Assembly (NCBI GenBank): GCA_021292165.1
Contig: JAHFWL010000433.1
Location: forward strand, 437,001 to 501,000
Source: Shinisaurus crocodilurus
Lineage: Eukaryota; Chordata; Lepidosauria; Squamata; Shinisauridae
Direction of reading: 5' to 3'
Length of the DNA: 64,000 bases
Position numbers and translations under genes: made by a program. This document shows positions 2,771 to 25,663 of the stretch, one piece after another; position 1 is the first letter of the stretch, and each line of letters begins with the position of its first letter. The notes below the pieces were generated by a model. That model did not search any database. It had not been told where the DNA came from and saw only the letters and a program-made list of their open reading frames with translations.

Positions 2771-2782
2771 GCTCTTCATCTC

Positions 2783-4572: not shown

Positions 4573-4666
4573 CTCGGATCACAATTCTGTGACGAAACCA
4601 AAAGTAGATTCAGCAGATTAATAACCTTGTCTAATCATTCCAATTCCAAATATCTTTGGAATTGAT

Positions 4667-4898: not shown

Positions 4899-5042
4899 GA
4901 ACTGATGACTAAAAGTGCTGTATACAATACAGTACCCTAAAAATAATAAAGGGTGAGGTATTTGGAAGTGCGGCAAGAAGGAGAACTGCCACGATGGGAG
5001 ATGTGCAAAGTCACAAAGAACTTACATTCACAATCTATACCA

Positions 5043-5108
5043 GCTGGCTGGGGCATGCTGGGAGTTGTAGGCCAAAAACATCTGGGGACCCAAGGTTGGA
5101 GAACACTG
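5043..5108. mobile_element. hAT-like MITE fragment
   Basis: The right half of the element found complete at 54910-55001: GGCATGCTGGGAGTTGTAGG, then ACATCTGGGGACCCAAGG, ending GGTTGGAGAACACTG. Confidence 0.65.
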
Positions 5109-5733
5109 ATCTATACACTTCTAGACCCATGTACTGTATTTGAATTCACGCAGCCTGAGCTAAGGTATGGTGTACAAAGCAACATTTCAGCGTGTTCTCT
5201 CTCTCTTCCTCTCTCTCCCTACATACCTTTGTCTATTTATCTGCTCTATATTTATCATATGTTCAGCAGCTTGGAGTTGTGTTTCCTTCAAATAATAAAA
5301 ACACCCCTTCATTCCATCCAGACATGTGGAATCAGCAATATGTAAACTAGATATTGTTTTTTCAAATGCCTTTAAGCAAAACTCCAGGAGAAAAAAAATG
5401 TAACAGTGTAAAGCAGGATTAAAGATCTGAGAACCATTGGGATTGACCTAGGTGAACTTAGTTTTGAAGCTGGGAGAGGCCTGAAGACAATCTATTCCCT
5501 GTATTGAATCAGTATCATCCATCCGTAATCATGCTTAATAATACATTATTCCAGCACATCTAAATTACTGTACGCTGCAAGCAAAAAGCACAGAAGGTGA
5601 GCGTTATCTTTCCATGTTCTTCCTTTGCACTGGACTTGTTCTTTTCCCAGCCCAGTTTTAACTCACTCACGCTCATTTTTATCTGCCAGCCATGAACAGC
5701 TCTGCCAATAGTCCCCAAAGTTGGCCTAGAACA

Positions 5734-6106
5734 GCAGTGTTGACCCTCTTTCAGCCCAAGGCCTGAATTCCATTTTGGAGAATCTCTCAGGGGGTGCATT
5801 CCAGCGGTGGTGGTGGTGGTGGTGGTGGGGAGCTGAAGGCAAAAAGGGGAAGGATCAAAGGCAAAGAAGGCAGGGCCAAAAATACCAGCATATTTTAGCT
5901 TAAAGCTCTTACTGCCAGTGGAGAGTTTGGAGAGTCATTCTAAACTTTTAGAATGGGGAAAAAACTGCACAAAAGCCAGGGAACCACTAAACTATCTGTG
6001 ATTTGGGGAAAGGGTGCAGGGCAAGAGGAAGGGGAAGGGGCACATCCATCTGGGGCATCCCAGGCAGGCTGGATTTGGCCCGTAGGCCGGAGGTTCTGCA
6101 CCTCTG
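5734..6106. mobile_element. hAT-like repeat, CAGGGGTGCAGAAC family
   Basis: The left end reads CAGTGTTGACCCTCTTTCAG and the right end is close to GGTTCTGCACCTCTG. The interior includes ATTTTAGCTTAAAGCTCTTA and a run of GGT triplets at 5806-5827. Related copies: 26988-27568, 28657-29018, 39775-39930, 41489-41792 and 58563-58957. Non-coding, presumably non-autonomous. Confidence 0.65.
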
Positions 6107-6168
6107 GCCTATAAGATTTTTTTTAAAATCCCAAGAGCAATCCTATGGCCCCTAGACAGCATCTAGAT

Positions 6169-6304
6169 CAGAGCTCTCCAACCTTGGGTCTCCAGATGTT
6201 GCTGGACTACAGCTCTCAGAATCCCTTGCCATTAGCCATGCTGGCTGGGTATGCTGGGAGCTGTAGGCCAGCAACATCTGGGGACCCAGGGTTGGAGAGC
6301 CCTG
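6169..6304. mobile_element. Palindromic hAT-like MITE
   Basis: The left end CAGAGCTCTCCAACCTTGGG mirrors the right end, which finishes GGTTGGAGAGCCCTG. The arms pair over roughly 65 bp. The flanking octamers ATCTAGAT and GTCTAGAG agree at 6 of 8 positions. Open frames on both strands here are only the two readings of a palindrome. Confidence 0.75.
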
Positions 6305-6624
6305 GTCTAGAGGATTCTTCAGATTCCCAGCTCCGAGGTTGGAAAAGAGCTCCCATCTTGGAGCTGAGGATTCGTGCTTGGTTCCCCCACCCCACCCTTG
6401 CAGCCACTGTGGAAGGAACCTCAGTGGTTGCTTCTTCGAGGTTGCAGGAGCAACCTCAGAGAAGAGGTAAAGGGGGAATTCCAGGGGGCAAGGAGGGGAA
6501 GAGACCAGGGCCGCCAAGATACAATGTATCCCGGCAGTGCTCCAGCCTCCTTCCCTCCCTGTCTGAAGTGCCACAGCTCGATGGTCGAAATTGTCCATCT
6601 AGCTGACTTGCAGGGCAGGAGGAG

Positions 6625-6727
6625 CAGGGGTGTGTGTGAAGATCACCTCCATGCTCCTCCTGCCCTGGATAGGATGCCTGTAATCCTCTGAGTTTGGAGG
6701 CTTATGGGCATCCCCAATGGATTGCAC
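6625..6727. repeat. Short MITE-like repeat
   Basis: The GTAATCCTCTGAGTTTGGAG stretch followed by GGATTGCACC resembles segments at about 34140-34265 and 52490-52570. Small, non-coding, family not named. Confidence 0.4.
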
Positions 6728-7217
6728 CCCATTAGTGTCTGACCACGCCAAGGTGGTGCAAATAGTGAAATAGGCACAGCTGAACAATAATGAAAGCCAA
6801 GAGCAATTCCTTTTTGCAATTAAATTTACTGGATAGCATTTCTGCATTTTGATTGTGATGCTCATTATCATCAGGCTCTTATTGACAGTGGGCTACACTA
6901 GGAACTTGTGTCTGTTTGCACATTCTTCTGTTGACTTCTTAGGATAAGCAAAGTCTGAAAAAGAATGCTCAAACAGTCACAGAAAGCAAAAGGCAAATTG
7001 AAACACCTGCTGGTGATTCAGCATATAAAAAATAATTGTCTGGAAATATTGTCTCAGTGAGTTGTTGGGATGTTTGTTCTGTTTTGAGAGAGCAGCTGAA
7101 ACCAAATTCTATTATCCCCCCAGGCAAACTTAGATTAATAGAGAAATGGCTCAGTTAAGTTTCATATTCCCTTTCTTAAGAAAAGGAAAATGATCAGAAA
7201 AAATCCACTCCCCTAAT
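6728..7217. other. No gene recognised
   Basis: AT-rich sequence in which I see no gene, RNA or repeat family. Confidence 0.45.
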
Positions 7218-7312
7218 TAGTTTAGATGTCTATACATGTCTACTCAGAAGTAAGTTCCATGGTTTTCGATGGGGCTTACTCCCAGGTAAGTTTGTATCAG
7301 ATTGCAGTCTAG
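7218..7312. repeat. Short MITE fragment (GGGAGTAAG type)
   Basis: A CATGTCTACTCAGAAGTAAG block is followed by GGGGCTTACTCCCAGGTAAG. It is the reverse orientation of the family at 3226-3290. Confidence 0.6.
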
Positions 7313-7330
7313 GGTGGAATTCTACATTGA

Positions 7331-7646
7331 CTGCGTTCAGACAACACGATAACCCACACTCAAGGCTTGAGTGTGGGTTGTCGTTGAACTGTAAGTTGTT
7401 GTTGAAATGTGGGTTATCATGTTGTCTGAACCCAGCTGAGATAACAAACCATGGTGAACAACCCACAGTTCGCAACCCAACAGCAAACCATAGATTTTCT
7501 TCATGGGTTGTTCATGGCCTGTTAGCGCAGCTGGGCTAAGACGACATAATAACCCACATTTCAGCAACAATCCATAGTTCAACAATAACCCACACTCAAC
7601 CCATACTCAACTCTTGAGTGTGGGTTATTGTGTTGTCTGAACCCAG
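7331..7646. mobile_element. Palindromic MITE pair, GTTCAGACAACACRATAACC
   Basis: The outer ends read GCGTTCAGACAACACGATAA and its complement GTGTTGTCTGAACCCAG. An internal GTTGTCTGAACCCAG near 7422-7436 closes a smaller palindrome, so two nested or tandem palindromic units are present. Related ends occur at 13380-13475. Non-coding. Confidence 0.7.
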
Positions 7647-7944
7647 TCACTATATTGGCAAGCATTTTTCCCAGGAAAGAATTGGAAGGCAGGAAGGGCA
7701 TGCAGCTTTGGGAGGGACACACATGGAGCAGTGAGGGAGGAAGGGGACACCCGCCTAGCCAGCCAGATCAGCCAAATCAACCCTGGCGATCAATGGGAAG
7801 ACAGATGTTGCAGCCAGATCGCCCTCACATCCAGGAAGGGCATGCTTAACCCTTACCATGCCAGCCAATTCTTCTCTGCAAATGCCTCCCAGGCTATGCA
7901 GTTAGCTTCTTCTCATACTGGAGACGAGCTGAGATTGTGCTGGG

Positions 7945-8476
7945 TGTGAAGGATTGAGGCCTACACAGGCTTAAGTTTGTTGAAGCCTGAAGGCCCAAAC
8001 ACTTCAGGATGGGAGGGGGAGTTTGTGAGTTTTAGTTCACCCAATAGAAGTTAAGAATTAGTTCTCCTGTTCAAGGTCACATGGTTATAGCCTTCCAATC
8101 CTGGGAAGGCTATATATGTGTGGGGTGTGGTCAGCTAGGGGGAGAGAGAGACTGACTGCAGAGAGAGACTGACTGCAGAGGAGAGAGGTAGTCTGAAGTT
8201 AAGCTAGTGAACCTTGTATTATTTGTTTGTTTAATTTTATCATACTTGCTTTTGAATTATAACTGCTCTATTATGTAAATACCCTAATATAATAAGTAAA
8301 GTGTTGTTGTGTACCCTGAGTTGTGGGAGTGACTTATTCACCACGTCTAAAGCCTATTCCCATGCTACTGGAAACAGGCAAAGGATTTGATCTCCTGGAA
8401 TGGGAGAGGCTTTGAGAAGAGGCAGAGATCTTCCAAAGGCAGGTTAAGGGGTCCCTGCAGTAGCGGAACCTTGACA
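7945..8476 (+). mobile_element. Solo LTR of an endogenous retrovirus
   Basis: The 532-bp segment begins TGTGAAGG and ends CCTTGACA, the TG...CA form of an LTR. It is flanked on both sides by the identical 5 bp CTGGG (7940-7944 and 8477-8481), the length typical of many retroviral integrations. A TATA-like CTATATATG at 8110 could mark a U3 promoter. A duplicated GAGAGACTGACTGCA block lies at about 8144-8178. There is no internal gag, pol or env on either side, so it is a solo LTR left by recombination. The orientation is inferred from the TATA motif. Confidence 0.75.
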
Positions 8477-8595
8477 CTGGGCGGGGTGGGGGGACAGGAG
8501 AAACAGTCCATGGGGCATTTCTAGGAAGTGAGTGTGGGAAAGATCAAGTATCCCCTTCTCACCCACGGATTGGAAGAGGACGTAGGCAGCATTGG

Positions 8596-8740
8596 CTGGT
8601 GGTTCTAATGCTGCCATGGTGCTGAACCTATGGTTGCGGGGGTAGGGTTCAGCACCATGGATAGTTCCTTAAAAGTTCAGACTGAAACCTGGAGTGGATA
8701 CACCGCTCCACTGACATTGGAGCCACCAGGCTTCACTGGA
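8596..8740 (+). mobile_element. MITE fragment, GGTGCTGAAC family
   Basis: Contains CCATGGTGCTGAACCTATGG, TTCAGCACCATGGATAG and GAGTGGATACACCGCTCCAC, ending GGAGCCACCAGGCTTCACTG. It corresponds to most of the complete element at 42997-43196. Confidence 0.7.
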
Positions 8741-8899
8741 TGTAGGTGTGACTAAATGCTGCTGAATTGTGCCTATCCATATGCCCACTCAGGGAGTCCT
8801 GGGAACTGTCGCTCTGTGAGGAGTGCTAAGGCACCCTCTAACAACAATTCTCAGGATTCTTAAGGAGTTTGCTACAAGCTTTCCCTCAAAATCTGTGTC

Positions 8900-9245
8900 A
8901 AGGGTAGGCATGATTAGGTGACTGCTGAGGGCCCACATCCCAGCAGGGGCCCTGCTGACAAGAGCTCAGTGGACTTGGTCTTCCTCTCCACCATTGCGGC
9001 CTGCTTGTTCACCGTGCTCTCAGTCTGGCCCAGACAACATTAGTGATGAGATGGAGGAGCAGTAGATTCCACTGCCTGCTAGCTCACTGGCTTCCTGCTC
9101 GTCAAGCAACCAAGTGGTAGTAATGATGAGAAAGAGGAGCGGGAGCAATAGTGCCTGCCTGGTGAGAAAGGCAGTGAGAAGACAGACTCACTGAGGGAGG
9201 GGATCCATTGAGGGTGTCTTACCCAAGGGCCCTCCAAAATTTACA
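8900..9245 (-). repeat. Dispersed repeat family D, copy 2
   Basis: Reverse-orientation copy of 3652-3860. The shared blocks are the complements of CCTCAATGGGCCCC and CTGCTATTGCTCC. It ends ACCCAAGGGCCCTCCAAAA. Confidence 0.6.
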
Positions 9246-10165
9246 TAGTCCTGATTATGCCATTGGGAGCACACCAGGGCCTAGAACCCTCTTTAAAGCC
9301 TATGTCCCTCGTATTCTGGACAAGTTCCTGCACACCATCTTCCTCATTTGCATTACCTGCCAGGGGCTGGGAATTGGGGGAGTTGTGAGTGGAGTGGAGA
9401 CACACCCATCCAGGCCAGGAGGGGTGCAGACTGCAGGGAACCCTTGGATGCTCCTATGTGGGTACCATCCATGGAGTCATGCAAGAATTGTTGTAAATGT
9501 CTGCCCAGCTGACATCAATTTCTGTAACTGTAAAGGCCTGGTTTCCCATCAAGAACATCCTTGTTTGCAGAACCATCTGCTGCAAAGGAAGTGACCTCCT
9601 CCTATGACCCAAGAGCATGACCAGACAATGAGAGACCACAACAGTTTCACAGGAGGAGGAACAGGAAGTATGTCTGTATTTCAGCAGAGCTGCGTATATA
9701 TTATTTACGTTAATAGGAGTTCATATGAGACATTAATACCGGTCTTGGAAAAGATGGGCGGCAGGAGGATGAACACAGCATGACCTCAACTGCCCAAGAA
9801 GGAAATTAATTGCCCACCAGCCATTCTTACTTATTATACCTATTTTTTCTTACTTAAAAAGTATTGCTTCAGAGTGAAATCAGATGGAGAGAGCCCTATA
9901 TTGGTTTTGCTACTGTCTTCTCTTCAAACCTTCTATGGTACTCTGCTGCTTTTTTCAATAGTGTGACTGTACAATTAAGCAGTGGGCAGACACCATCTTG
10001 TGTCTGATTTGGAATTGATCAGTGTGATCATTTTTTACTTCTCAAGTAGCACAACACCACCACCACCTTTTTATTTTCCCACTGCCACCGCTTTACACCT
10101 ACACTGTGGCACCCGACTCTGCCCCCACTCTCATGGAAGCTCTCAGTAGCATGTTTGTCAGGTGC
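9246..10165. other. No gene recognised
   Basis: An open frame of 128 codons lies at 9208-9594 but shows no recognisable domain. I see nothing else I can name. Confidence 0.4.
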
Positions 10166-10169
10166 CTTG

Positions 10170-10505
10170 AAGTTTCCCCACCAACAGTTCACCCCAGGAC
10201 AGCAGACTGAGCAGGCACACATGAAGTCCCCTGGTCCCAGTCTTCCCCAGTACATCGGGTGAGATGTCTAGGCTAGGACATGTCCTCCGCTTGAAGGCCA
10301 GTCAGAGGACAGTCCTCTGTTTGAAGGTGTCCTCTCTTTGAAGAGCTGTCCAGTCTGGTTTAAAGATAAAGAACCCTCAGAAGGGAGAGCAGGACCTTGA
10401 AGCTGCCCATCAACAGTGATCACCTGGACAGAAGACTGAGCAGGCACACAGCTCACCTGGTCACAGTCTGCCCCAGTATAAATAGTGAGATGTACTGTGT
10501 TTCTG
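10170..10505 (+). repeat. Dispersed repeat family F, copy 1, partly duplicated
   Basis: Core blocks are CAGAGGACAGTCCTCTGTTT, TTAAAGATAAAGAACC and CTTGAAGCTGCCCATCAACA. The distal half (GACTGAGCAGGCACACA to AGTGAGATGT) occurs twice, at 10170-10266 and 10400-10500. Other copies: 26462-26640, 30437-30503, 36365-36628 and 49040-49300. Non-coding, not matched to a named family. Confidence 0.6.
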
Positions 10506-10514
10506 TTTAAATTA

Positions 10515-10775
10515 TAGAGCGCCAATGTGGCATAATGGTTAGAGTGTTGGACTGGGACTTGAGGATTCCGGGTTCTAGCCCCACTCGGCCATGAAGCTCA
10601 TGGGGTGACTTTGGGCCAGTCACTGACTCTCAGTCTAGCCTACCTCACAGGGTTGTTGAGGATGAAATGGAGAGGAGGAGGAGGAGGAGGAGGAGGATTA
10701 TTATGTAAGCTGCATTGGGTTCCTTGCAGGAAAAAAGGTGGGATATAAATATAATAAATAAATAAATAAATACAT
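10515..10775 (+). mobile_element. Sauria-type tRNA SINE
   Basis: Starts near GAGCGCCAATGTGGCATAAT. It has the GGTTAGAGTGTTGGACTGGG head, the GGGTTCTAGCCCC B-box-like motif, the TCACAGGGTTGTTGAGGATG body, a GAG-rich run and a GGTGGGATATAAATATAATA tail. Full length in layout. Confidence 0.85.
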
Positions 10776-12229
10776 AATAGTAATTTCCAAATTGGCATCT
10801 GTACATATAAACTAGCACATGCACATTGTAGGTCCTCTTTTGCCCTCTCTTTTGGTGATGCATTTCCTCTTTTCTGGTGATTTGTAAGTGGCCACTCTCT
10901 TATCTAGGCCCTGTGGTAAGCACCTGATGGTGTTCTCAGAAGCCTGAAATTCCAGAGGCCCTTTAGATCTTTTCAGATCCACTCCAAACTCCACAGCCTT
11001 CATGTGGATTCTGAAAAGGGACTAGAAATAAAGAAAAAGAACCTTCCAAATTTGGTGGAAGGACCAGTACCATTGACAAATTCGGGATAGCACACACACC
11101 TGAGTTCATGCTTAGGCCAGCTTACAGTCTCTCACTCCAAATTACAGACCCCTTGATGAAAAGGGCAATGCTATTCCTGAATTCAAGGTCTTCCATGATA
11201 TGGAGGTTTGGGGAGGAAAGTTGTTATGGGCTGGCTCAGGGTTCCATTCGCCTGGTAGCAAGCTAAGAAAGGGGGCAGGCTTTTCTTTTCTTTTCTTTTC
11301 TTTTCAACTATGTATAAAGTTGTGCAAATGAATTTTATGAATGCATGCATGCAATCAGCTACCTCATCCAAGAGCTGAAAAGAAACAGTTCTCATGCTGC
11401 CCATCGCTACAATAAACTTGCCCCGCCAGAGGAAATTGGCTCTTTGAAACGCTTACTGTGTGTGTTTTATTGCCATATTGCCAGGGGCTGAGTATGGCCT
11501 TTGGGTTGGACCATGACTCTGTTACTGAGGATCATAGCTCAATCAGCTGGGGAGTTACCCCAGTAAAGAGCTTGTCCAGGACCAGTGTAATTAGGCTTCA
11601 TTACAAATAGGTTCACCTTAATTTGCTGCCAGTTGCAGCAAATTACTATGCCTAACCTTCAGGCTGCTTGACCTCATACCAAAGCATGAAATGTTCATTG
11701 TACATAACCTGCCATATTTAATTGCAAACATAATCCGGAAAGGGACATGTGGAAAATACCGAGTCATAAAGCCTTCAAAGGACTTAGAATGCTTTTTAAA
11801 GAGAAATTACATGCTTATTCCCATGGGGTTTTAAGTAGCGAAGCTAGTTCAGTACATGGCCAGTTCAATCCAATATAACATTATCTGGCTCCACAATAAA
11901 GTCTTTGCCCAGAGAAATGTGATTATATTAAATTATACTGAAGTTCCACTTCAATCAGGATGCTGCCAGAATAAAATAAACAATAGCAATTAGAGCACAA
12001 AAGTGGAAACACTTAAAGTACTTTATTATGACAAATTATTTGAACAGGTGTTTAAGAGGAATTATGTGTCATCTTGCACTGGTGCTGAAGGACATGTGAA
12101 AGAATAAGAGAGTGTGTGCTCATTGGTGTGTGCCCTCATGGAGTCAAAGCGAAGGGTGGAGTGTTCCCTCTGAAAGCAAAATAATTCCACTCAGATTCCA
12201 GAAAGAACTTATATGCTTGCTTCATACTA
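10776..12229. other. No gene recognised
   Basis: About 1.45 kb in which I see no gene, RNA or clear repeat family except a (TTTTC)n tract at 11281-11304. Confidence 0.4.
11281..11304. repeat. (TTTTC)n microsatellite
   Basis: Five tandem TTTTC units. Confidence 0.9.
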
Positions 12230-12372
12230 TTTAGGCTTAAATATTGTTATTTATTTAATTAATAATAACTGCTGAGTAATTAAGAATTAATTGATATTGA
12301 TATTAATTAATATTAATAATTTATAAGTAGCAACAAATATTAATATTAATATTAATAATAATACTAAAGCTT
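12230..12372. repeat. AT-rich tract, TAAT repeats
   Basis: Degenerate runs of ATTAATA and AATATTAAT. Low complexity. Confidence 0.8.
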
Positions 12373-12470
12373 TATCTATGAATATAAATAGAAAACAGGC
12401 TGTTTGCACATACAAAAACAAGCTTTATCTTGGGAACACAGGTAGGATATCAGGGTCAGGGAACATAACG

Positions 12471-12652
12471 AATTCATAGATTTCATAGAATTCATAGATC
12501 ATAGAGTTGGAAGGAGCCTACAAGGCCATCGAGTCCAACCCCCTGCTCAATGCAGGAAACTAGAGGAGGGGTCTCCCATCCAAGTAATCACCAGGCCTGA
12601 CCCTGCTTAGCTTTCCACGCTCAGGCAAGCTGATCAAGTACAGGTCTCAGGC
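12471..12652 (-). mobile_element. 5S rRNA-headed SINE with CR1 tail, copy 1
   Basis: On the minus strand a 5S-rRNA-like head contains GGAAAGCTAAGCAGGGTCAG and ACTTGGATGGGAGACC. This is followed by a CR1-type 3' tail (GGTTGGACTCGATGGCCTTG and CCAACTCTATGATC, then TCTATGA repeats). Other copies: 25073, 28429, 36990, 43588 and 53737. The head includes the 5S internal promoter region; the tail would allow CR1 machinery to mobilise it. Confidence 0.85.
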
Positions 12653-12778
12653 AATAACAGGTAAGTAAATATTTTTCTTTTTATAGCACTTTTTCACTCT
12701 TCTAACAGGCTCATCTCTAATATCTTCCTATCTCCTTACCTCCCCCTCCCTGTCTAACAGCTCTCTCTCTCTTTCCAC

Positions 12779-12857
12779 TGTTTTTGTGGATTGTTGTGAA
12801 CCACCCAGAGAGCTTCGGCTATTGGGCGATATATAAATGAAATAAATAAATAAATAA
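12779..12857 (+). mobile_element. L2-like LINE 3' tail
   Basis: A TGTGAACCACCCAGAGAGC stretch leads to CTTCGGCTATTGGGCGATAT, then AATAAA repeats. Same tail type as 41105-41165 and 56850-56935. Confidence 0.65.
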
Positions 12858-12904
12858 TATTTGCTTACTTTCATGTTTAATATTATTTATTTAAAAGATA
12901 TTCA

Positions 12905-13240
12905 TTGATTTATATGTATGAAGATTTATATCCCACCTTCCTGGTGCTTATGCCATACTCAAGGCCACTAACAATGATGAAAAACAGTAATACAATAATA
13001 ATACAATATAGTTTCCCCTCTCCCCCAAATACAATATAATAAAAGCAGGGACAGGTACAGCAGATAAAACAGAGATAGTATATTAAAAAAACCCACACAA
13101 CCTCCCTGATAAAACAAAAGCCTGCCCAAGCAAGAAGTTTTTTGCCATATGATGAAATACTGTAAGAGAAGAGGCCAACTGAGTATCCCAGGACAAAGAC
13201 CTCCACAGTTTACGTGCGGCCATAGAGAAGTTCACACCTA
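12905..13240 (-). repeat. LINE-related dispersed repeat
   Basis: Shares layout with 56960-57250 and 62240-62460: a 'TATATCCCACCTTCC' start, a CA/AAT-rich middle with ACAATA runs and a distal block on a CCACAGTTTACGTGC theme. It appears non-coding. Family not determined. Confidence 0.4.
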
Positions 13241-13247
13241 CACCAAA

Positions 13248-13378
13248 GGAAGGGGACACAGCTTAGTGGCAGAGCACATGATTTGCACGTAGAAAGTCAC
13301 AGGTTCAACCCCCACCGTCTCCATAAGGGCTAGGAAAGAATCCTGCCTGAAACCCTGGAGAGCCACTGCCAGTCAGTG
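13248..13378 (+). mobile_element. tRNA-derived SINE
   Basis: A-box-like TTAGTGGCAGAGCACATGAT and B-box-like AGGTTCAACCCCCACC, followed by CTGGAGAGCCACTGCCAGTC. Same family as 39415-39620, 55100-55282 and the distal half of 60456-60770. Confidence 0.75.
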
Positions 13379-13379
13379 G

Positions 13380-13475
13380 CTGGATTCAGGCGACACGATG
13401 ACCCACACTCAAGGGTTGAGTATGGGGTTGTCATTGAACTGTGGGTTGTTGTTGAAACGTGGGTTATTGACTGGG
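13380..13475. mobile_element. Palindromic MITE fragment
   Basis: GGATTCAGGCGACACGATGA followed by CCACACTCAAGGGTTGAG resembles the ends of 7331-7646. Confidence 0.6.
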
Positions 13476-13499
13476 TTCACATGACATGTTATGCCACCC

Positions 13500-13608
13500 T
13501 GGGCACGCTTCCTGGGGTGGTGGTGGCTTATAAGCAAGTACAGTCCTACTGCCCAGGTCCCGTGAGAGTGTCGTTGTCCAGGATGGGTTGTAGTAGATCA
13601 CTGATGAT
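13500..13608 (-). mobile_element. Penelope-like element, C-terminal part left of hAT
   Basis: Read on the minus strand, this continues in frame from the PLE coding sequence that stops at 16873. TPLKCIIS is completed across the CTGATGAT duplication and followed by DLLQPILDNDT. It is the same retroelement, interrupted by 13609-16864. The plus-strand PLE fragment right of the L1 reads PLRCIISDL at the homologous point, supporting the join. The left limit is blurred by MITE sequence. Confidence 0.8.
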
Positions 13609-14092
13609 CAGGGATGGGGACTCGGACTCCAGGACTCGACTCGTGAGTCGGACTGAGTCCCCCCTCTGACTCGAGTCCCACTCGAGTCCCAATATTTTTA
13701 ATGGGACTCGAGACTTGACTCGAGACTCGAGTCCAAGGACTCTTCAACATCCCTGGGCTGTGCCAGAAGGAGTGGAGAGAAGTGCGATTGCCGGCGAAGA
13801 TTTTATTTTTAAAAATCATTTTCCTAAAATGCAACCTTTCAGATATTTTGGGTTTGGCTGCCTCTGCCTGCCTGTTTGGGGTTCCCAGCCTCCTCTGCCT
13901 GCCTGGCAGGGCCGGATTAAGAGCATTATGGGCCTGGTGCTGAGGATTTTGGTGGGCCTTTTTATGGAAATAAATAAAATGAAGACGCAATTTTTATATT
14001 AAAACAAATTAATATTTTAATTACCATTAAAGTGCCAAAACAGAAACATATTGAAAATATTTCTTTTTTTGTAAACAATAAGCTTGTTAACT

Positions 14093-14212
14093 CAATAAAA
14101 CCTGATGGAAGTGGGCAGTGTCCGTGAAAGCTTATGTCAGAATGAATGTGTTGGTCTTTAGGGTACCACAAGACTCTCTTGTTGTTCTTGCTGCAATAGA
14201 CTAACACAGCCC
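14093..14212 (+). mobile_element. Penelope-like 3'-terminal fragment
   Basis: Contains GTCCGTGAAAGCTTATGTCA, TTAGGGTACCACAAGACTC and ending GACTAACACAGCCC. This resembles the 3' end carried by many reptile PLE copies. Compare the tail at 23161-23188. No coding sequence. Confidence 0.6.
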
Positions 14213-14345
14213 ACCCCTTCGGGAATTATGCAGACTGTTAGGCAACAATGTACACGAACCGAGCTCTTACTCAGCTGCCCCCCCCCCACGTGCTATATGG
14301 AGAGAATGCTATTGACCTGCCTTACAGGGTTGATGTAAGGATTAC

Positions 14346-14415
14346 AACAGGGGTCCTCAAACTTTTTAAACAGGGGGCCAGTTCATTGTCTCTCAGACTG
14401 TTGGGGGACCGGATT
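14346..14415 (+). mobile_element. hAT-Charlie-like terminal fragment
   Basis: CAGGGGTCCTCAAACTTTTT followed by GGGGGCCAGTTC looks like one end of a Charlie-type hAT. I could not find a matching opposite end. Confidence 0.55.
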
Positions 14416-14548
14416 ATAGTTTAAAAAAAAAAAAAGAACGAATGGATCAAGTAAAAAAAAAGGACCTGGGTCATTTTTTTTCACTTGATAGGGGTGAATT
14501 TTTTTTTCTTAAATGGAAAGTTATTATAAATTAATTATAATGTTAACA

Positions 14549-15024
14549 AGTGATTAAATGGAGGATGGAATGTTATTTTGATGGCAAAAGTGGGTAGAAA
14601 TTAGTGATTTATTTATTTATTTATTCCATTTATACCCCGCTCTTCAGCCAGAAAAGGCTCTCAGAGCGGTTTACACAGATTACTGGTAATAATAAGACAT
14701 TCCCTACCCTCAGGCTCACAATCTAAAAGACGTGACACAAAAGGAAAAGGGATTGGGGGGGAGGAGGAAGAATGCCAAACATTATATTGGTGCCTGAGTT
14801 TGGCATTCTTCCTCCTCCCTCCCAATCCCTTTTCCTTTTGTGTCATGTCTTTTAGATTGTGAGCCTGAGGGCAGGGAATGTCTTATTATTAATCTGTGTA
14901 AGCCGCTCTGAGAGCCTTTTCTGGCTGAAGAGCGGGGTATAAATGCAATCAATCAATCAATCAATCAATCAATAATAAATGATTAAATGGAGGATGGAAT
15001 TTTATTTCGATGGCAAAAGTGGGT
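14549..15024. repeat. Inverted pair of LINE tails within direct repeats
   Basis: Two oppositely oriented LINE tails (14631-14780 and 14798-14943) pair as about 148-bp arms around a 17-bp spacer. They share GCCGCTCTGAGAGCC-like and CTTTTGTGTCA-like blocks. Outside the hairpin a direct repeat of about 48 bp (GATTAAATGGAGGATGGAAT start) occurs at 14549-14597 and 14977-15024, with a (CAAT)n tract just before the right copy. Confidence 0.75.
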
Positions 15025-15177
15025 TTAAAAAATAAGAATGTACTACCTTTTTTGCTGTCTAAAATTGAAATACATTATAAAAGGCTACCTACAAATTATA
15101 AGCCTGTTTTGCTTTTGTCTGGCTGCTCTGTGTGTGTGAGTGCTTTGTGTGGGGTAAACTGAAATACATTATAAAAG

Positions 15178-15325
15178 AGTCCCTGACTCTCAGCCTAACC
15201 TATCTCACAGGGTTGTTGTGAGGATAAAATGGAGGAGGAGGACTATGTAAGTCGCCTTAGGTTCCTTGCAGGAAAAAAGGTGGGGTATAAATATAACAAA
15301 TAAAATAAATAAATAAAATAAATGT
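15178..15325 (+). mobile_element. Sauria-type SINE, 5'-truncated
   Basis: Only the 3' half is present: CTGACTCTCAGCCTAACC, CACAGGGTTGTTGTGAGGAT and AGGTGGGGTATAAATATAAC with an AAAT tail. Its TATAAATA belongs to the SINE tail and is not a gene promoter. Confidence 0.8.
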
Positions 15326-15377
15326 GAAAAGGCAGCAGCGCCTGTATGGGAAACAGGTGGGCAGGCAGGAAAGAGGG

Positions 15378-15725
15378 CACTCTGAGGGAAACTGGGGCAG
15401 ATGCCGGGAAGGAGGGAGAGTACTTTGAAGGAAGCTGAGGCAGAAATGGAAGGAGAAAGGGAATAGAAGGGGGGGACCCACTTTGTGCCTGCCTGCCTGC
15501 CTTTCTTTTTTGCTTGTTTCCCTTGAACTTTGAGGGAAACTGTATGCACACTTTGAGGGAAACTGAGGCAAGAAGGAAGGTGCTTTGGGGGAAGCTGAAA
15601 CAGAAAGAGAACGGAAGTGTCTGCGTGTGAGGGGGGGGCATTTTGTGCCAGCCTTGCTTTCCTTTTTGCCTCGGGTTTCCCTCAGGGAAACTGGACAAAT
15701 ATTGAGGGAAACTGAGGCAAAAAGA
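15378..15725. repeat. Degenerate TTTGAGGGAAACTGAGGCA repeats
   Basis: At least seven partial copies of a 15-20-bp motif, starting near 15380, 15422, 15527, 15550, 15582, 15682 and 15700, with purine-rich spacers and GCCTGCCTGCCTG. It lies next to the captured exon on its intron side, so it could derive from RAB26 intron 1 or from the transposon. Confidence 0.6.
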
Positions 15726-15960
15726 GAGGGAGACGTAAATGGATAAACTTGGAGGGCGGCGGCGAGAAAGGCTCCGGGGCGAGGCGGCTCTGGGGAGCAG
15801 GCTCAGGTCCCCCCCCCGCGTCCAAGCGGAGGAAGAGGAGGAGGGCGTGGCGCGCGCCCCTCGCGGCAGCCCCACCTGGCGAGGAGGAGGAGGAGGACGA
15901 CGCCCCCAGGCATGCCGGGGGCTTCGCGCGTGCCCACCCGCCCGGTTCTCCCCCCGCCCA

Positions 15961-15965
15961 CTCAC
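15961..15965 (-). other. Splice donor after RAB26-like exon 1
   Basis: On the minus strand the exon ends TTCAAG and is followed by GTGAGTGG, a strong consensus donor. It preserves the phase-0 boundary expected before VMLVGDSG. Confidence 0.75.
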
Positions 15966-16208
15966 CTTGAAGGCGACGTCGTAGAAGAACTCTCCGCTGT
16001 TGCTGAGCGAGGGTCTGCTGGGCAGCGCCACCCCGTTGGCGGCGCAGCAGGAGGAGGCCGCCGCCGCCACCGCCACCGCCGCTCCGGCTGCCCCCTTGGC
16101 CCGGGCCGCGCCCCGGCCGCCGGCATCGGCGTGTTGCTGGGTGGCGGGCAGGGCGGACGAGGGCGCCGAGGTGCTGCCCTTGCTCTTGGGGCTCTTCCTG
16201 CGGGACAT
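15966..16208 (-). CDS. RAB26: RAB26-like first coding exon (captured copy)
   Basis: The exon encodes 81 residues starting MSRRKSPKSKG and ending GEFFYDVAFK, directly followed by a GTGAG splice donor (15965-15961), phase 0. Vertebrate RAB26 proteins start with a very similar MSRKKTPKSKG and reach the GTPase fold with FYDVAFKVMLVGDSGVGKT; here the donor falls just before VMLVGDS, so only the variable N-terminal extension is present. RAB26 is a small GTPase acting on secretory granules and vesicles. The middle is Ala-rich and low in complexity. The ATG has A at -3. No exon with the P-loop, switch or C-terminal Cys motif is recognised in the window. The exon sits inside two nested hAT-like insertions, so I read it as a mobilised copy, not the native gene. 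It could act as an alternative first exon if a downstream acceptor exists. Confidence 0.8.
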
Positions 16209-16872
16209 GCTGGCGCGGGCTCGGGCTTGGCTCAGCGCGCCCTCCCGGCCGGCTGCGAGCAGCAGCAGCAGCAGGCGGGCAGCCCCAGCGCCGGCGGCAT
16301 CCCTCCGTCCCTGCCCTCTCTCCGCCCGCCGATCCCGCTCTCGGCCGCCGCGTGACCCTCATTTCCCCCCCGCACCGCGCGTCCCTATTGGTGGGCCTAT
16401 TTTGGGGGAGGGGCCTGGAGCTGGCGCTCCAATAGCCCCTATGTTAATCCGGCCCTGCTGCCTGGTCTCTTCTTAACTACGTAGTTCCACAGTTTGAATT
16501 GTCCAAGACAAACGCCTCTGCCTGCCTGCTTTGGGGTTCCCTGCCTCCTCTGCCTGCCTGGTTATTTTGGGTTTGTCTGCCTGGTCTGTTCTTGTCAAAA
16601 TCAGTGGCAGAGTTTTGAAATAAAAAGGCACACTTGTTGTGCCTAGAATTTATTTCAGCCACATATCTGAAGTAGCCTTATTTTGCTGGGAAACCCCCCC
16701 CCCCCACTGATTTTAATAGGGACTCGTGGAGTCAGCTTTGGGAGGGACTTGGGGCTTGTGAGTCACCATTTTGGACCAAGGACTCGGACTCGGACTCGAG
16801 ACTCGGGTCCAAAGACTCGTGACTCGACTCGTGACTCGAGACCAAGGACTCTTCAACATCCCTGCTGATGAT

Positions 16873-17584: not shown

Positions 17585-17769
17585 GGGGGAGGAGCTTCGC
17601 CAGCTATGGAACAGTAGCTTTTCTGCAGAGCTCCCGGAATGATTTGATAACATCTGCAAAATACACAGGAAAGACAAATCGTGAGTTAAAACTCCTTTGC
17701 TGTTTGCTTTCTGGAAGGTATGCAGATGCAGAGCTAATAAAGAAATAAAAAGAACAGTTTTCTTTTGCT

Positions 17770-18894
17770 GTGCTTTGCTTTGGATTGTTTATGAGCTCCA
17801 GACGGGTGAAAAAGTCCCTACCCCCTCTTTGGAAACGCGATCGGGCGCATCCCTCGGATAACAGTTTGAAAAGGCTAATTAGGATCCTTGATACGAAAGA
17901 TACTGAATTTTCTTATCAATTTGAGCAACAGGGTCCTGATAAGAAGCTACGAGGTAGTGAAAGTTCCGAGACAGCGAGGGGGAAGGGCGGAAAAATGGCG
18001 GATTCAGCTGGCAAATTCCCTGCTGGTGCCAAGCCAAAGACAACATCTCCAGCTAAGCTTAAAGGGGCAGCACCAGATTGGGAGAAACTTTTATTACAGT
18101 TTCAAAGCTCTATGGAAACAGGCCAGCAGAAACATACAGAAGCAATTGAGAAATTTCAAAAACTGCATCAAGAGGATATGAAGCAGATGAGAGAGTCCAT
18201 AGATCGTATGGGGGTTCAAATTAAAGAGCTGCAAGTTAGAGTGGATAAGGTTGAAAAACTCCAGGTGAAGGATGAAAAAAGTTTTGAAAAGTATGAAACG
18301 AAATTTAATGAGATGGAAATACAGATGATCAACATGCAAGACAGGCAACGTCGTTCCAACATTCGGATCAGAGGCTTCCCCATGGAGATGGGGGAGACTG
18401 GATATAAGTTAAGAGGCAGTATTTTGGAATGGATGAATGAAGCTGTCTCTGGAGAAACAAATCTTTGGGATGATATGGACATTGAGATTGTGCATAGAGT
18501 GGGAGCATTAAGGCGTGGTATGACATCCAGAGATGTTGTAATGAAATTTGCAAATTTATACAAGAAGGATGTCTTCATGAAAGCGATCAGAAAGAAAGGT
18601 CAAGTAGCTTTTAAGGGGGCTACTTTGCAAATCTACAATGATCTTTGTCAGCAAACAATTAAGTGGAGGCGAAGTGTTAAACCGTGTACAGCAGTCTTGA
18701 TCAGAAAGGGATTACAATACAACTGGGGTTATCCAGTCTTTCTTACTTTTGTGTGGAATAGTAAGAGATACAAGATCTCATCATGTGACCAAGGCATGGG
18801 CCTGCTGGGAGAGTTGGGGCTTCATGATGATGCAGAGGGTCCAGAATTGATGGGTCAACTGGAAGAAGAAGGAGCCAGCGGAGGAATTGTATAA
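17770..18894 (+). CDS. L1 ORF1 protein (RNA-binding nucleic-acid chaperone)
   Basis: An uninterrupted 374-codon frame. Residues about 104-190 are heptad-like and rich in K, E, Q and M (coiled coil, trimerisation). Residues about 192-275 form the RRM-like domain with RRSNIRIRGFP, then IEIVHRVG, and about 276-340 the C-terminal domain with RKKGQVAFKG and a hydrophobic VFLTFVWN stretch. L1 ORF1p coats the element RNA and acts as a chaperone in the cytoplasmic RNP. The first Met gives an unusually long N-terminus. The Met at codon 76 (17995, MADSAG) has A at -3 and G at +4, would give 299 residues, and is the more likely start. The tail after residue 340 is acidic and glycine-rich. No break is seen. 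Confidence 0.9.
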   Translation: MLCFGLFMSSRRVKKSLPPLWKRDRAHPSDNSLKRLIRILDTKDTEFSYQFEQQGPDKKLRGSESSETARGKGGKMADSAGKFPAGAKPKTTSPAKLKGAAPDWEKLLLQFQSSMETGQQKHTEAIEKFQKLHQEDMKQMRESIDRMGVQIKELQVRVDKVEKLQVKDEKSFEKYETKFNEMEIQMINMQDRQRRSNIRIRGFPMEMGETGYKLRGSILEWMNEAVSGETNLWDDMDIEIVHRVGALRRGMTSRDVVMKFANLYKKDVFMKAIRKKGQVAFKGATLQIYNDLCQQTIKWRRSVKPCTAVLIRKGLQYNWGYPVFLTFVWNSKRYKISSCDQGMGLLGELGLHDDAEGPELMGQLEEEGASGGIV

Positions 18895-19161
18895 GAGGTT
18901 GTTTCAGCACGAGAAGAAAAAAAGAAATAGAAAATGTTTTATAAAGAAGTTATCCGGGAGGGAATTAGGGACTGCTGTTCGGGCTGGTGATGGGTCCTTT
19001 CCCCCCCCCCCCTGGGATAGGTGGGTAGGTTTAGGGTGGGGCAAGTTGCCCTGGCTTAGCAGGGGGGATAGTTTAGATGAATGTGGGGTTGGGTTAAGGG
19101 GTATGTTATTGTGTACTATATTCACTTTTGGGGACCAAAAAAGGAAAAATGATGTTAATAG

Positions 19162-22100
19162 ATGGATTATAAGTTAAGAATTTCAACTTTAAATGTTAAG
19201 GGGCTAGGTTCAGTTACTAAGAGGAGGCGAATAGAAGCACTTCTTAAGAAGGATAAGGCAGATATTATATTCTTGCAAGAAACGCACCAGGCAAGGAAAG
19301 GAGTCAATGAATTGAAATTGAGGTGGTCTAGAATATATGAGATAGCATGTGGATCATCTAAATCACGAGGAGTAGCAATTATAATTTCAAAGAATTGTGG
19401 TTTTAATGTTTTAAAGGTGAAAAAGGATGGTACAGGTAGATATATTATAATGTATGGGACCTTGGGAGGGGAAGAATATGTTATAGTTAATGTTTATGCT
19501 CCCAATCAAAATCAAGGAGAATTTTATCAACATGTGTTTAAAGAAATGGGTAATTTTCAAAATCAAAGGGTTATTATGGCTGGGGACTTTAACATGGTAT
19601 TGGATAGAAGAAAAGACAAATCCAATCCGACGAGAGAAGATCAGAGAAATAATTTAACGATCTTGAATAAGTTAATTAGTAAGGAAGGGTTGCTAGATGT
19701 TTGGAGAGGGGTCAAGGGGAATGCGGAAAGATATACATTTTACTCATCAGCAAATAAGAATTATTCTAGGATAGATTTTATTTTTGTGTCCAGGACACTG
19801 TTTTCAAGGGTCTTGGGCACAGAGATAGGAGTGATAAAAGTTACAGATCATGCTTTGGTTAATATGGATTTGAAGATACATAAGGATTATAGAGAAGCGA
19901 AAAGATGGAGATTGAATTGTAATATTTTTCGTTTTAAACATTTAACAGAAAAAATAGAGAGGGAATTGAGGGAAATTTGGGAATTTAATCAAACAGAAGA
20001 ATGTACTGAAGCGATAATATGGGATACAATGAAGAGTGTAATGAGAGGAATAGGATTGAGAGAGGCAATAAATTTGAGGAAACAACAAGAAGTTTTTTTA
20101 TCAAAAGCTAGAGGGGGAGATTAGGGATTTGGAAAAGAAGTATTTAGAGAAGAGGAATAAAAAGATTTTTGCAGAATTACAGGGTAAAAGGAAAGAATTG
20201 GAGAATAAAGAACTGGATAGGGTACAAAGGAATTTGATTTATACAAAAAGGGAGTATTTTGAGAATAGTAATAAAAACTCTAAAATGTTGGCTAGATTAG
20301 CACAAAAAAAAAAAAGAAAAAAGCTTAGTGGGGGTGATTAAAGACAAGAGGGGTAAAGAATATAATCTAGTAAAGGATAAATTGAAAATTTTTCATGAAT
20401 ATTATACGGAGTTATATAAGGCAGGAAAATGGTCGGAAGCTGAGAGTAGAAAATATATCGAGAAAAATTTAAAAATAAAAATTCAGGATGAAGACAGAGA
20501 GAAAATGGAGCAACCATTCACAGAAATTGAAATAGAAAGTGCTATAAATAAATTGAAACAGGGGAAAACGCCAGGACTGGATGGTCTGGGGGCGGAATAT
20601 TATAAAGTTTTTAAAAAAATGTTAATTCCAAAGTTAAAATGGTTGTTCAATGATATTTTACAGGGGGGAGAGATCCCCCCGTCATGGAAACAGTCCTTGA
20701 CTATTTTAATCCCGAAACCAAGGAAGGATTTAGCAGAACCAGGTTCTTATAGACCAATATCATTAATTAATCAAGATGCTAAATTATTGACAGCAATTTT
20801 AGCTAGAAGAATGAATAGTTTTCTAAATAAGTATATAGGGATAGATCAATGCGGTTTCATTCAAGGAAGACAAATGGCAGACTTAACAAGAAGGGTTCTG
20901 AATATAATATATTTAATAAAGAAAAATAATTTGAAAGCGGGGGTTCTTGCATTGGATATTTTTAAAGCCTTTGATTGTGTGGAATGGCCTGCATTAAAGA
21001 TGTTAATAAAAACTATGGGGTTTGGAGAAAAATTTATAGGTATTACTAACCAATTATATACTCATAATGTTACGTCGGTAATTGTAAATGATGGAATAAC
21101 AGAAACTATTAGCCTAGGCCGGGGAACTAGACAGGGTTGTCCCCTTTCCCCTGTATTATTTGTGTTAGTTATGGAATTGTTAGCGAATTCGATAAGACAG
21201 GAGAAGAAATTACTGGGGATAGGGATAGAGACCAAATGTAAGATAAACCTTTTTGCAGATGATATCTTGTTAACATTAGAAAGGCCTATAGAAAATTGGG
21301 ATTGGATAGAGAAACATTTAGATGAATTTAGAGAAGTAACAGGGTTAAAAGTTAATTGGGATAAATCGGAGATAATGACATTTAATTATAGTAAACTGGA
21401 GGAAAGGGGATTTAAACAAAGGAAAGTGGATATAAAGATAAAAAATATAATTAAATATTTAGGTATTGATATATTAAAAGATATGGATAAAATAGGGGAA
21501 TGCAATTTTAAAAAACTAAAAGATGAAGTTAAAAATCAAATAGAGGATTACAAAAAATTGGGATTATCGTGGTTTGGTAGGATAGCTTTGATTAAAATGA
21601 AGATTTTACCGAAGTTTAATTTTTTATTTAGAATGATACCATATAAGATACCAGAGAAAGAAATTAAAGAGTGGCAAGTAATGTTAAATAGCTATTGTAA
21701 TGGGGGAAAAAAATCAAGGATTACTAGGAATAGATGGTATAAAGCTCAAAAAATAGGGGGACTTGGTCTCCCTAATTTAAAATGGTATTATATAGCTAAT
21801 CAACTTAGATATATTATGGATATTATTGTTAGAAAAGATATTATGTGGTGGGAAATAGAAGCATTTGAATTGGGTAATAGGGTGGATAAATTCTTATTTA
21901 CAAAACAAGGACATATTATGACTAAAAGATTAGAAAATCCCTTTTTAAAAAATATGTTAGAAATTTCGGGTAGAAATAAGGAAATATTTTTACCAGGTAT
22001 ATCCCCGCTTACTCCAGTGGTGGTTATGGAAGATTTTCCCGAGAATGTTAGACATTTAGAACGAATTTTTAGAGAGAAAAAGGTGATAACTTTAATGGAT

Positions 22101-23000
22101 TGGCTGGAAAAAATGGAGACAAGACAGCAAATAATCGATAGGGTTGGGGCAGGAAGAATTTCTTGGTTAAATTTAATTCAATTAGTACAATGGGGTAAGA
22201 AATGGAAGAGGAGACATGAGCATGAAAGGGATTTCACCGCATTTGAGCAGGTGGTTATGTCTAGAGAACTTGTAGAAGGAAATGCATCAGCTAGGGGTCT
22301 TACAAAGATGTTATATAAAATGTTGCAGAAATCAGAAGAGCAAGCAGAAAATCTTAAAATAGTTTGGGATACAGAGTTTGAAGAGGAAATATCAAAGGAT
22401 GAGTGGAACAAGATTTGGGATAGGCGAATATTGAAAAATATGTCTATAAGAATTAAAGAGAATTTTTATAAGCTAATTTGGAGATGGTATTTGACTCCAG
22501 TGAGATTAAATAGAATAGATAATAAATGTTCTCCAATGTGTTGGCGAGGATGCCAGGAATTGGGTACATATGCTCATATGTGGTGGAGTTGTAAAAATGT
22601 AATGGATTTTTGGAAAATGATTTTTGAGGAAATATCAGAAATTGTTGGAGCTGATTTAGAGGTTTGCCCTAAACTAGCTTTGCTATCAATAACGGAAAAG
22701 GTGATCGGTCCTCAAAATGTTAAAGAATTAATTATAAATTTGTTAACGGCAGGTAGCCTAATGATAGCAAGGAAATGGAAAATCCAGCAAGTTTTCACTA
22801 TTACTGATTGGTATAAAGAAGTATGGGACATGGCTTTGAATGATATGTTGACTTGTAATATTAAATGCAAAAGGGGTCAATTAAAGAAAAATAATTTCAA
22901 GGATATTTGGGGTTTATTTTTGGAATATGTGTTTAAAAAGGGGAAAGGGAGTTTACCCTGTCAAGATATGTTGTATTTTTGGAATAATGAACAATTATAG
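19162..23000 (+). pseudogene. L1 ORF2 (endonuclease-reverse transcriptase), two frameshifts
   Basis: The first segment (19162-20124) encodes an AP-type endonuclease with all expected active-site elements: N11 in STLNVKG, E40 in LQETH, YAPN at 112-115, GDFN with D142, SRID with D205, and the D229/H230 pair. A one-base shift in a G5 run (about 20113) moves the frame to a segment ending at 20341; a second shift in a 12-A run (20302-20313) moves it to 20328-23000. The last segment holds the reverse transcriptase: PGSYRPISL, ALDIFKAFD (D210), GTRQGCPLSP and FADD (D311/D312), and near its end a Cys-rich CSPMCWRGC...GTYAHMWWSC region. The protein nicks target DNA and primes reverse transcription there. 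As written it cannot make one full-length protein; both shifts sit in homopolymers, so sequencing error is possible. Confidence 0.9.
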
Positions 23001-24062: not shown

Positions 24063-25072
24063 TAACTAAAGCCCTCCACAAACTTTAACAAGCAGCATAG
24101 TTTCTACCTGACATCTGAAGGTTATCAAAGTCAGCACTAGGCAGATATAGGTCTTTTGGTGATGGTGGGGCATTCCGCAGTAGGGGGCCACAGCAGAATA
24201 GGCCTCCCACCTCACTTCAGAAAACTTTTTTTCAAAGCAAACCACCACTGCTGTTGCTGTCTTTCAAAACTTCATGAAACGTAATTGTTCAGGCCCAAGT
24301 GGGACCCGATCCCCTAATTGGAGAAAGAAATCCTATATAATAATAATGAATTCATTCTCTGAGTGTGGATCTTTATGTAGCCAAAATGGTACCATTCACA
24401 CACAAGACGGAGGAATCAGCAGGCTCCGGGGAAACCTCAAGGTTTTCAGAAACACAACAAACTTTTGAGAAAAACAAAAAAAACATAATGGGGTGGCTGT
24501 TGGAGGTGGGAAAATAGAAAACCTGTCTGGGGGTGGGGCGGGGCGGGGAGAGTGGGAATGGAATGGAGTATGAGCATTTTGTTGTGGGAATTCAGTGCAG
24601 ACAGGAGTCAAGTCTTACATAATGCACAAGCAGCAGAAGCAAATGTTGTTACCTTTGTTACTCATTCAGGGATGTCACGTGCAAAATGTATACTTTGGCG
24701 TTAGCATCAAGTTTTGAATCAACCAACGCACTTCACCCCTTTGTGCCATTTGTGCCATCCGCACCTCCTGTTGACTTAGCTATTTCATTTCTAAATTCCT
24801 CAGCTGACATGCTACCTTCCTTCCTCTGCCTCTAGGGCTATTGACAGAGACATGATACTCCTCTTTATCACTTGTTAGGAAAATCTTGCAAAAGCAGCTG
24901 GCCAGAGAGACTGATTAGGCTGCCGGTCCAGGTATTAGGCCTTGAGACATGGCTGCTCTCTGGAAAAAAGGCTTCCGCCCTGGAGGAATGCTGGCATTCA
25001 ACATTGGCTTTAAAAAGAGGAATACACAGGGGTGCAGGTCTAGGAATGTATCAGCCTTGGGAGTCAAAGGGA
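24063..25072. other. No gene recognised
   Basis: No gene, RNA or named repeat is seen. A G-rich stretch lies at about 24528-24552. Confidence 0.4.
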
Positions 25073-25266
25073 ATGTTGAGCTGCCTGTGGCTGATGCTGG
25101 CTCAGCTTGTCTGAGCGTGGAAAGCTAAGCAGGGTCAGGCCTGGTTATTACTTGGATGGGAGACCCCTCCTCTAGTTTCCTGCATTGAGCAGGGGGTTGG
25201 ACTCGATGGCCTTGTAGGCCCCTTCCAACTCTATGATCCTATGAACTCCTATAACTCCTATGACCA
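25073..25266 (+). mobile_element. 5S rRNA-headed SINE with CR1 tail, copy 2
   Basis: Same structure as 12471-12652. The head contains GGAAAGCTAAGCAGGGTCAG and TTACTTGGATGGGAGACC, then the CR1 tail GGGGTTGGACTCGATGGCC and a run of CTATGA-like repeats. Confidence 0.87.
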
Positions 25267-25339
25267 GAGGCAGTAAACCTTTTAATACCATCATACTGGG
25301 GAGAAGCAACATAAGATGGCTCCAGCATGGCCTGCAGAA

Positions 25340-25425
25340 TTATTTGCCTGGCCACTGTTGGAAACAGAATGCTGGGTTAAATGCACTGTTGTCTTGATCC
25401 ACCAGGGCTCATGGCATGATCGGTA
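25340..25425 (+). mobile_element. CR1 3' UTR-like fragment
   Basis: GGCCACTGTTGGAAACAGAA followed by TGCTGGGTTAAATG fits a CR1 3' UTR. Short, diverged. Confidence 0.5.
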
Positions 25426-25545
25426 TCTTCTTTCTTTTTTGAAATCATTCTTCCCTCCATGTTTTTTCAGGGATTACTCATGAGTAACCATTGCTTGCCC
25501 TGCTGCTGCTACCTTACTCCTGTGTCATGCCAAGAAATAATAAAG

Positions 25546-25663
25546 CAGGGTTAGGCAACCTGGCCCCCTCTAGATGGTTTGGACTGCAGCTCCCAGCATG
25601 CCCAGCCAGCATGGCCAATGGTCAGGGATTATGGGAGTTGTAGTCCAACGGACATTTGCCCTG
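25546..25663. mobile_element. hAT-like MITE (GGACTGCAGCTCCCAGCATG)
   Basis: Starts CAGGGTTAGGCAACCTGGCC. A palindromic core of CTCCCAGCATGCC and GGGAGTTGTAGTCC. The right end is degraded (TTTGCCCTG), so the boundary is approximate. Confidence 0.55.

Follow-up and report, generated by a model that had tools for sequence, protein, structure and literature searches.

Gene capture by cut-and-paste transposons was surveyed in animals by Tan et al. (2021), who recorded 370 Pack-TIRs, 208 of them hAT elements, in 100 animal genomes (PMC8277862). According to that account the captures are almost always single-copy; four multicopy Pack-TIRs are listed for the 100 genomes, three in frog and one in alligator, and hAT-N8_XT carries 291 bp of the CAPSL 5' UTR on three frog chromosomes (PMC8277862). 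The strings 'lizard', 'reptil' and 'squamat' do not occur in the main text of the same paper, which also describes Ssk-FB4 of Drosophila, a MULE-like element that holds a nearly whole gene and is present in four copies in populations (PMC8277862). Bat Helitrons are quoted as carrying the promoters of 15 genes in 4,690 copies, and the NUBPL promoter and splice donor captured by HelibatN3 trapped exons in cell culture (PMC4778049).

The element described in this study has features in common with each of these systems. Like the animal Pack-hATs, it has hAT termini and a TSD around a piece of a host gene; unlike those that PMC8277862 describes, it is present in at least 71 copies, carries a promoter together with a coding exon and a splice donor, and belongs to a family in which different genes are found on one body. 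Ssk-FB4 is likewise a TIR element that carries a host gene together with 5' upstream sequence and is inserted at several loci, each with its own TSD, but there the cargo is a nearly whole gene and the element is MULE-like (PMC8277862), whereas here a promoter-exon piece sits in a hAT-like element. The NUBPL-carrying HelibatN3 is similar in that a captured promoter, a short N-terminal coding part and a splice donor were amplified (PMC4778049). Plant Pack-TYPE elements, including the maize Pack-hATs, are also non-autonomous TIR elements with gene pieces, although from plants, and the available text of PMC8903248 describes no promoter-plus-first-exon family of such kind. The first-pass annotation of this DNA knew of no described hAT case in a squamate, and our search of the open literature, covering titles and the openings of abstracts, found no vertebrate or squamate hAT with a captured promoter-exon unit; hAT gene capture in animals as such is already published (PMC8277862). 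The new points are the copy number, the promoter-exon cargo and the several different cargos on one body. We consider the best explanation, at a probability of about 94%, to be that a non-autonomous hAT-like family captured a promoter-exon piece of RAB26 and spread it by transposition, with sister elements carrying other cargos.

The window analysed here is a stretch of 64,000 nucleotides (C1383:437001-501000) of the 2.19-Gb assembly. Its positions 13907-16457 are occupied by a 2551-bp non-autonomous hAT-like element. The left TIR, CAGGGCCGGATTAA (13907-13920, plus strand), recurs as an exact inverted copy on the minus strand at 16444-16457 (14/14), and the left TSD CTGCCTGG (13899-13906) agrees at 8/8 positions with the right one (16458-16465), so that the 14-bp inverted ends and the 8-bp duplication noticed at the first inspection are both exact. 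In the window we counted six pairs in which TIRs of at least 8 bp and an exact 8-bp TSD lay no more than 6 kb apart, whereas 30 first-order Markov shuffles of the window gave 0.27 such pairs on average, and the longest TIR accompanied by an 8-bp TSD in any of the shuffles was 9 bp. The left 1.9 kb of the element is a body made of nested repeats (13907-15840, plus strand), which the sister copies have in common as far as element position 1157-1958, the limit varying with the type of cargo, and which includes a foldback pair of an interspersed repeat (14605-14967) with arms of 85-94 nt that are 89-97% complementary. The right end (16352-16457, plus strand) is common to part of the other cargo types. 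A CpG island extends from 15740 to 16387, with 80 CpG, an observed/expected ratio of 0.86 and a GC content of 0.76, and no second island in the window passed the 500-bp scan used. None of the six frames of the inner element contained a Pfam domain.

A second hAT-like element, which spans 13609-16864 and has an 8-bp TIR, CAGGGATG, encloses the first. The left part of the outer element lies at 13609-13906 and its right part at 16466-16864, and the TSD CTGATGAT is found at 13601-13608 and again at 16865-16872 (8/8). Since two TIR/TSD pairs, one of the inner and one of the outer element, are present, exon 1 came to this place by insertion. The outer element interrupts a frame that reads like a Penelope reverse transcriptase and in which no Pfam domain was found; when the flanks of the outer element are joined, the frame is open for 20 codons, which argues weakly for the interruption. 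In the host context, Pfam searches covered 1-14999 in three minus frames, 25000-39996 in one plus frame and 40000-54998 in all six frames, and detected one reverse transcriptase fragment only. A PDB search with one minus frame returned only two ORC3 chains (E 0.05), and P0001 had no PDB match up to E 10.

The captured RAB26 DNA lies on the minus strand at 15841-16351, with the left edge uncertain by some 25 bp, and comprises exon 1, the promoter CpG island upstream of it and, on its other side, some 124 bp of intron 1, at 92.6% identity to the native gene on contig C7. The coding part of exon 1 (15966-16208, minus strand) holds 81 codons and adjoins the intron 1 splice donor GTGAGT (15960-15965, minus strand), which is GTGAGC in most copies. 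A human RAB26 query matched the window by tblastn over residues 1-75 (38% identity, E 7e-9), and the same query gave no other convincing RAB26 exon in the window. The CpG-dense segment with 81 codons of RAB26 exon 1 and its donor was therefore read correctly from the outset, and the alignment to the native gene narrows the captured part to a fraction of the block, the left 1.9 kb being body.

The native RAB26 gene was located by a search with human RAB26 for exons 2 onward and by a degenerate pattern for exon 1. Exon 1 is at C7:71641995-71642228, and exon 2, the P-loop exon with VMLVGDSGVGK after the acceptor, at C7:71645463, with later exons following. The longest captures (L010 and L011) align to 818 bp of the native locus (C7:71641535-71642352), made up of exon 1 with 460 bp of sequence before the ATG and some 124 bp of the first intron, and the short form seen in the window ends inside this stretch. 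The donor and the intron sequence are kept in the element, which places the capture at the DNA level. In 5.9 kb around the native exons 1 and 2, the best matches to the TIR were two 14-mers with 3 mismatches each, about what chance gives by our own arithmetic.

A search with the whole element gave 7943 first-look candidates, of which the best 40 were scored and all 40 fetched. Among these best 40, nine (the window's own copy included) matched the full length 1-2551 at 95-100%. Both TIRs and an 8/8 TSD were found in 37 of the 40 copies, and all 37 TSDs were different, which implies real transposition. The three others fit less neatly: the right TIR is absent from the fetched stretch in L031 and L040, and the TSD of L032 is out of register. 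The exon-island query gave 126 candidates, and all of the best 40, which were scored, cover 543-552 query bases at 91-100%. Moreover, a degenerate pattern spanning the exon 1 end and the donor matched 52 places, and its reversed control none. The union of non-native RAB26 exon 1 copies (L001-L011, L041-L073, L079, L080 and L084-L108) amounts to at least 71, in addition to one native exon; the number is a lower bound because the searches score only the best candidates. The right TIR was within the fetched stretch in 67 of the 71 (11/11, 31/33 and 25/27). Some copies are probably segmental duplicates: L092 and L093 have a stop in common, and the near twins L055/L056 and L106/L107 probably arose in the same way. 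L077 and L078, which are older RAB26 copies of full length, show TSDs of 7/8 and 8/8, respectively. The copy nearest to the parent among those noted, L051 (C7:71194181), is about 450 kb from native RAB26. Like a multicopy Pack-TIR, the family thus occupies a number of sites away from the parent, with TSDs that differ from site to site. The first-pass annotation had proposed the capture of a gene fragment by a DNA transposon and predicted many copies, and both proposals agree with a native gene on C7 and TIR/TSD-bounded copies elsewhere. Neither of the two outcomes that it had set against its own reading was found: RAB26 does not run continuously through 15965 to a P-loop exon, and the genome is not devoid of a second RAB26 exon 1.

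As to the class of the element, the start of CAGGGCCGGATTAA is of the CAGGG-type hAT motif class, and a short TIR of this type and an 8-bp TSD are both present in the inner element family. The target consensus of Ac-type hAT elements is nTnnnnAn; the 37 TSDs have T at position 2 in 12 and A at position 7 in 8 cases, with no clear nTnnnnAn pattern, so the hAT assignment rests on the TIR start and the TSD length. Helitrons are rolling-circle elements and are not known to have TIRs or TSDs, and membership in this class was rejected because the inner element has both; the RAB26 carrier, a TIR element with an 8-bp TSD, differs in this respect from the rolling-circle Helitrons of bats. hAT transposase domains abound in the genome. 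For the hAT transposase domain PF05699, the 150 best-scored of 7321 candidate matches were all over the cut-off, and several of these loci have open frames of 838-856 aa. The TIR CAGGGCCGGATTAA was found in none of the 3' flanks of six fetched transposase genes (0/6), where one 14-mer at 3 mismatches from the TIR was no more than chance gives.

In the sister copies the common body is followed by CpG-rich segments that differ between copies, and then by the right end, which exists in at least two sequence types within the family. In L036 and L039 the cargo (F) is EIF2B5 exon 1 with its promoter and a GTGAGC donor; L036 keeps the EIF2B5 frame open as far as the donor, and in L039 the frame breaks a little short of that site. 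Compared with the native EIF2B5 locus on contig C3, where later exons lie downstream of exon 1, L036 is 97.2% identical over 1.37 kb and L039 95.9% over 1.26 kb, and no TIR with up to 3 mismatches was found in 2.6 kb at this locus. Thus, for both RAB26 and EIF2B5, TIRs surround a host sequence whose parent locus, over the 5.9 and 2.6 kb examined, is without the element, which is how a Pack-TIR is recognised. Besides the native gene, 55 EIF2B5 exon-1-like places were found among the best 62 of 137 candidates, and not all of these need belong to the RAB26-carrying hAT-like family: of the two that were fetched, L082 has the right end of that family with rearranged EIF2B5 pieces, and L083 lacks the family termini and consists of EIF2B5 pieces in tandem and inverted arrangement. 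Two more cargos, C and D, are first-exon-like segments. Cargo C has a start, an open frame and a donor-like site in L027 and L028, and its start was not found in L030; cargo D shows these three features in L037 and has a broken frame in L029, and in L031, whose assignment to D is doubtful, neither a start nor a donor was found. Cargo E has a donor-like site in 4/4 copies without a clear frame, and cargo B is a further CpG-rich segment without a legible exon. As the bodies are almost alike whether the cargo is RAB26, EIF2B5 or another segment, capture happened more than once. Whatever the cargo, the bodies of 39 copies (L040 excluded) diverge by 0.3-2.8%, and in a body tree without support values, built from copies chosen for their likeness to the window, the older RAB26 copies interleave with B copies, which is suggestive of a reassortment of cargo and body.

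Thirteen copies were compared with native RAB26, from which they diverge by 1.1-3.4% outside CpG sites and by 9-14% within them. The low non-CpG difference indicates that the RAB26 capture is recent, on a scale not calibrated in years. In 44 copies, 437 of 3480 native-CpG cells had become TpG or CpA, with 38/2359 in the reverse direction, and this loss of CpG points to germline methylation of many copies.

The alternative that survives best, although we regard it as improbable, is that host promoters and first exons are kept to express the element's own transposase or that of a partner, with the exon frame under selection. Such a function would be consistent with the four legible first-exon cargos (RAB26, EIF2B5, C and D) and the donor-like site of E facing one way, with the promoter side by the right TIR; however, the two-sided probability that all five would point the same way by chance is 0.06, and the inner element has no transposase domain. 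It would also be consistent with the intact exon frame in 60 of the 71 RAB26 copies (41/44 and 19/27) and with indels in multiples of 3 being 12 of 17 in the exon compared with 18/50 on the intron side and 6/14 on the 5' side (44 copies), but many of the exon length changes fall within codon repeats. Coding selection on the captured exon was rejected: a hint in 44 copies, in which nonsynonymous transitions were rarer, was gone when all 71 were used. The nonsynonymous and synonymous counts were 28/37 and 26/29 for CpG transitions (P = 0.20), 24/116 and 10/50 for other transitions (P = 1.0), and 7/74 and 8/50 (P = 0.40) and 37/268 and 8/59 (P = 1.0) for two classes of transversions. As the rates are alike in all four classes, the retention of the frame reflects youth and not selection.

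We give still less credit to a one-off filling of a gap inside an already inserted hAT, the transposition-independent route by which, according to PMC8277862, most animal Pack-TIRs arose. The right junction would suit it, as native and copy have CTATCCA in common, then AATGA with a 2-bp offset, and diverge thereafter. However, the reported cases of this route are single-copy and for the most part close to the parent gene (PMC8277862), whereas the composite here occupies at least 71 sites, and the copy in the window and its RAB26 parent lie on different contigs; gap filling is therefore contradicted for the spread and may yet describe the very first capture. That the block is simply the native first exon of RAB26, with transposons only inserted around it, has next to no probability despite the intact frame, start, donor and CpG island, since the exon is accompanied by the TIRs and a TSD at dozens of loci, no further RAB26 exon follows in the 15.9 kb of the window downstream on C1383, and the C7 gene, with exons 1 and 2 lying 3.2 kb apart, rules this reading out.

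Under capture by a hAT-like family with subsequent transposition, the reading we prefer, a non-autonomous family ending in CAGGGCCGGATTAA and making 8-bp TSDs would have acquired the 818 bp of native RAB26 just inside its right end, with the promoter side by the right TIR and the splice donor towards the element body. The loss of some 317 bp from within the upstream sequence would then have given the 2.55-kb form of the window, and a hAT transposase acting in trans would have moved the composite to at least 71 places, a few of them probably reached by segmental duplication; on nearly the same body, capture occurred more than once, yielding EIF2B5 exon 1 with its promoter and the other CpG-rich segments. 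The structure, the native donors, the junctions, the copy number and the independent TSDs are direct observations, and from them we infer mobilisation in trans by a hAT transposase and a capture via template switching during repair or replication. By analogy with the NUBPL unit of HelibatN3, the captured unit could start and splice chimeric transcripts.

In a wider sense, it is tempting to see here one vertebrate hAT family that has time and again taken up CpG-island promoters along with first exons (those of RAB26 and EIF2B5 and two or more others), in one orientation by the right TIR wherever legible, and disperses exon-trap units of promoter and donor, a TIR-transposon counterpart of bat Helitrons; we put this extended reading slightly short of an even chance. 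A practical consequence is that gene prediction may place false first exons of RAB26 and EIF2B5 at dozens of sites. At the same time, several cargo types are found on almost one body, so the family offers a way to see how a TIR transposon gains new cargo. One of these cargo units was put in at least 71 places within a few percent divergence; thus, one promoter can be compared in many contexts, and it can be asked which copies stay unmethylated and transcribed.

The non-autonomous hAT-like transposon that carries the RAB26 promoter and exon 1 (the inner element) lies within an outer hAT-like element, which occupies positions 13601-16872 including its TSDs (TIR CAGGGATG; TSD CTGATGAT, 8/8). GACTCGAGTC motifs were abundant at both ends of the outer element, and its insertion site falls within an RT frame that we take to be Penelope-like.

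Other putative mobile sequences were also detected in the window. The 3.4-kb segment at 25144-28550, bounded by an 18-bp TIR (GTTATTAC...) and the 8-bp TSD CAGGCCTG, could be a further DNA transposon, and a MITE-like unit of 92 bp (54910-55001) was delimited by a 19-bp TIR (CAGTGTTC...) and the TSD CCTTACGC. An L1-like element (17749-23000) lies on the plus strand: in Pfam it showed a weak RNA-binding-like domain, below the cut-off for that domain, and an endonuclease, and these are followed by an 899-aa open frame that was RT-like as judged by eye. The minus strand contained a 379-aa RT frame (38231-39370; RVT_1 at 9e-36) as well as 7SK-like (7566-7832; 138 bits) and 5S rRNA-like (60657-60774; 52 bits) sequences; the last two may be retrocopies or belong to SINEs.

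Among the 40 copies fetched as matches to the whole inner element, about 14 (L012, L014-L026) carried the CpG-rich segment termed cargo B, the assignment in L022, L023, L025 and L026 resting solely on match limits. In the copy L013, about 24 bp aligned with the captured RAB26 DNA at its left edge and were followed by an unrelated segment, which may reflect replacement of the cargo. No termini of the inner-element family were found in the stretch fetched for L083, an EIF2B5 exon-1-like place that consists of tandem repeats of EIF2B5 promoter/exon pieces with short inverted pieces in between. In L083, EIF2B5 DNA is amplified in a second form.
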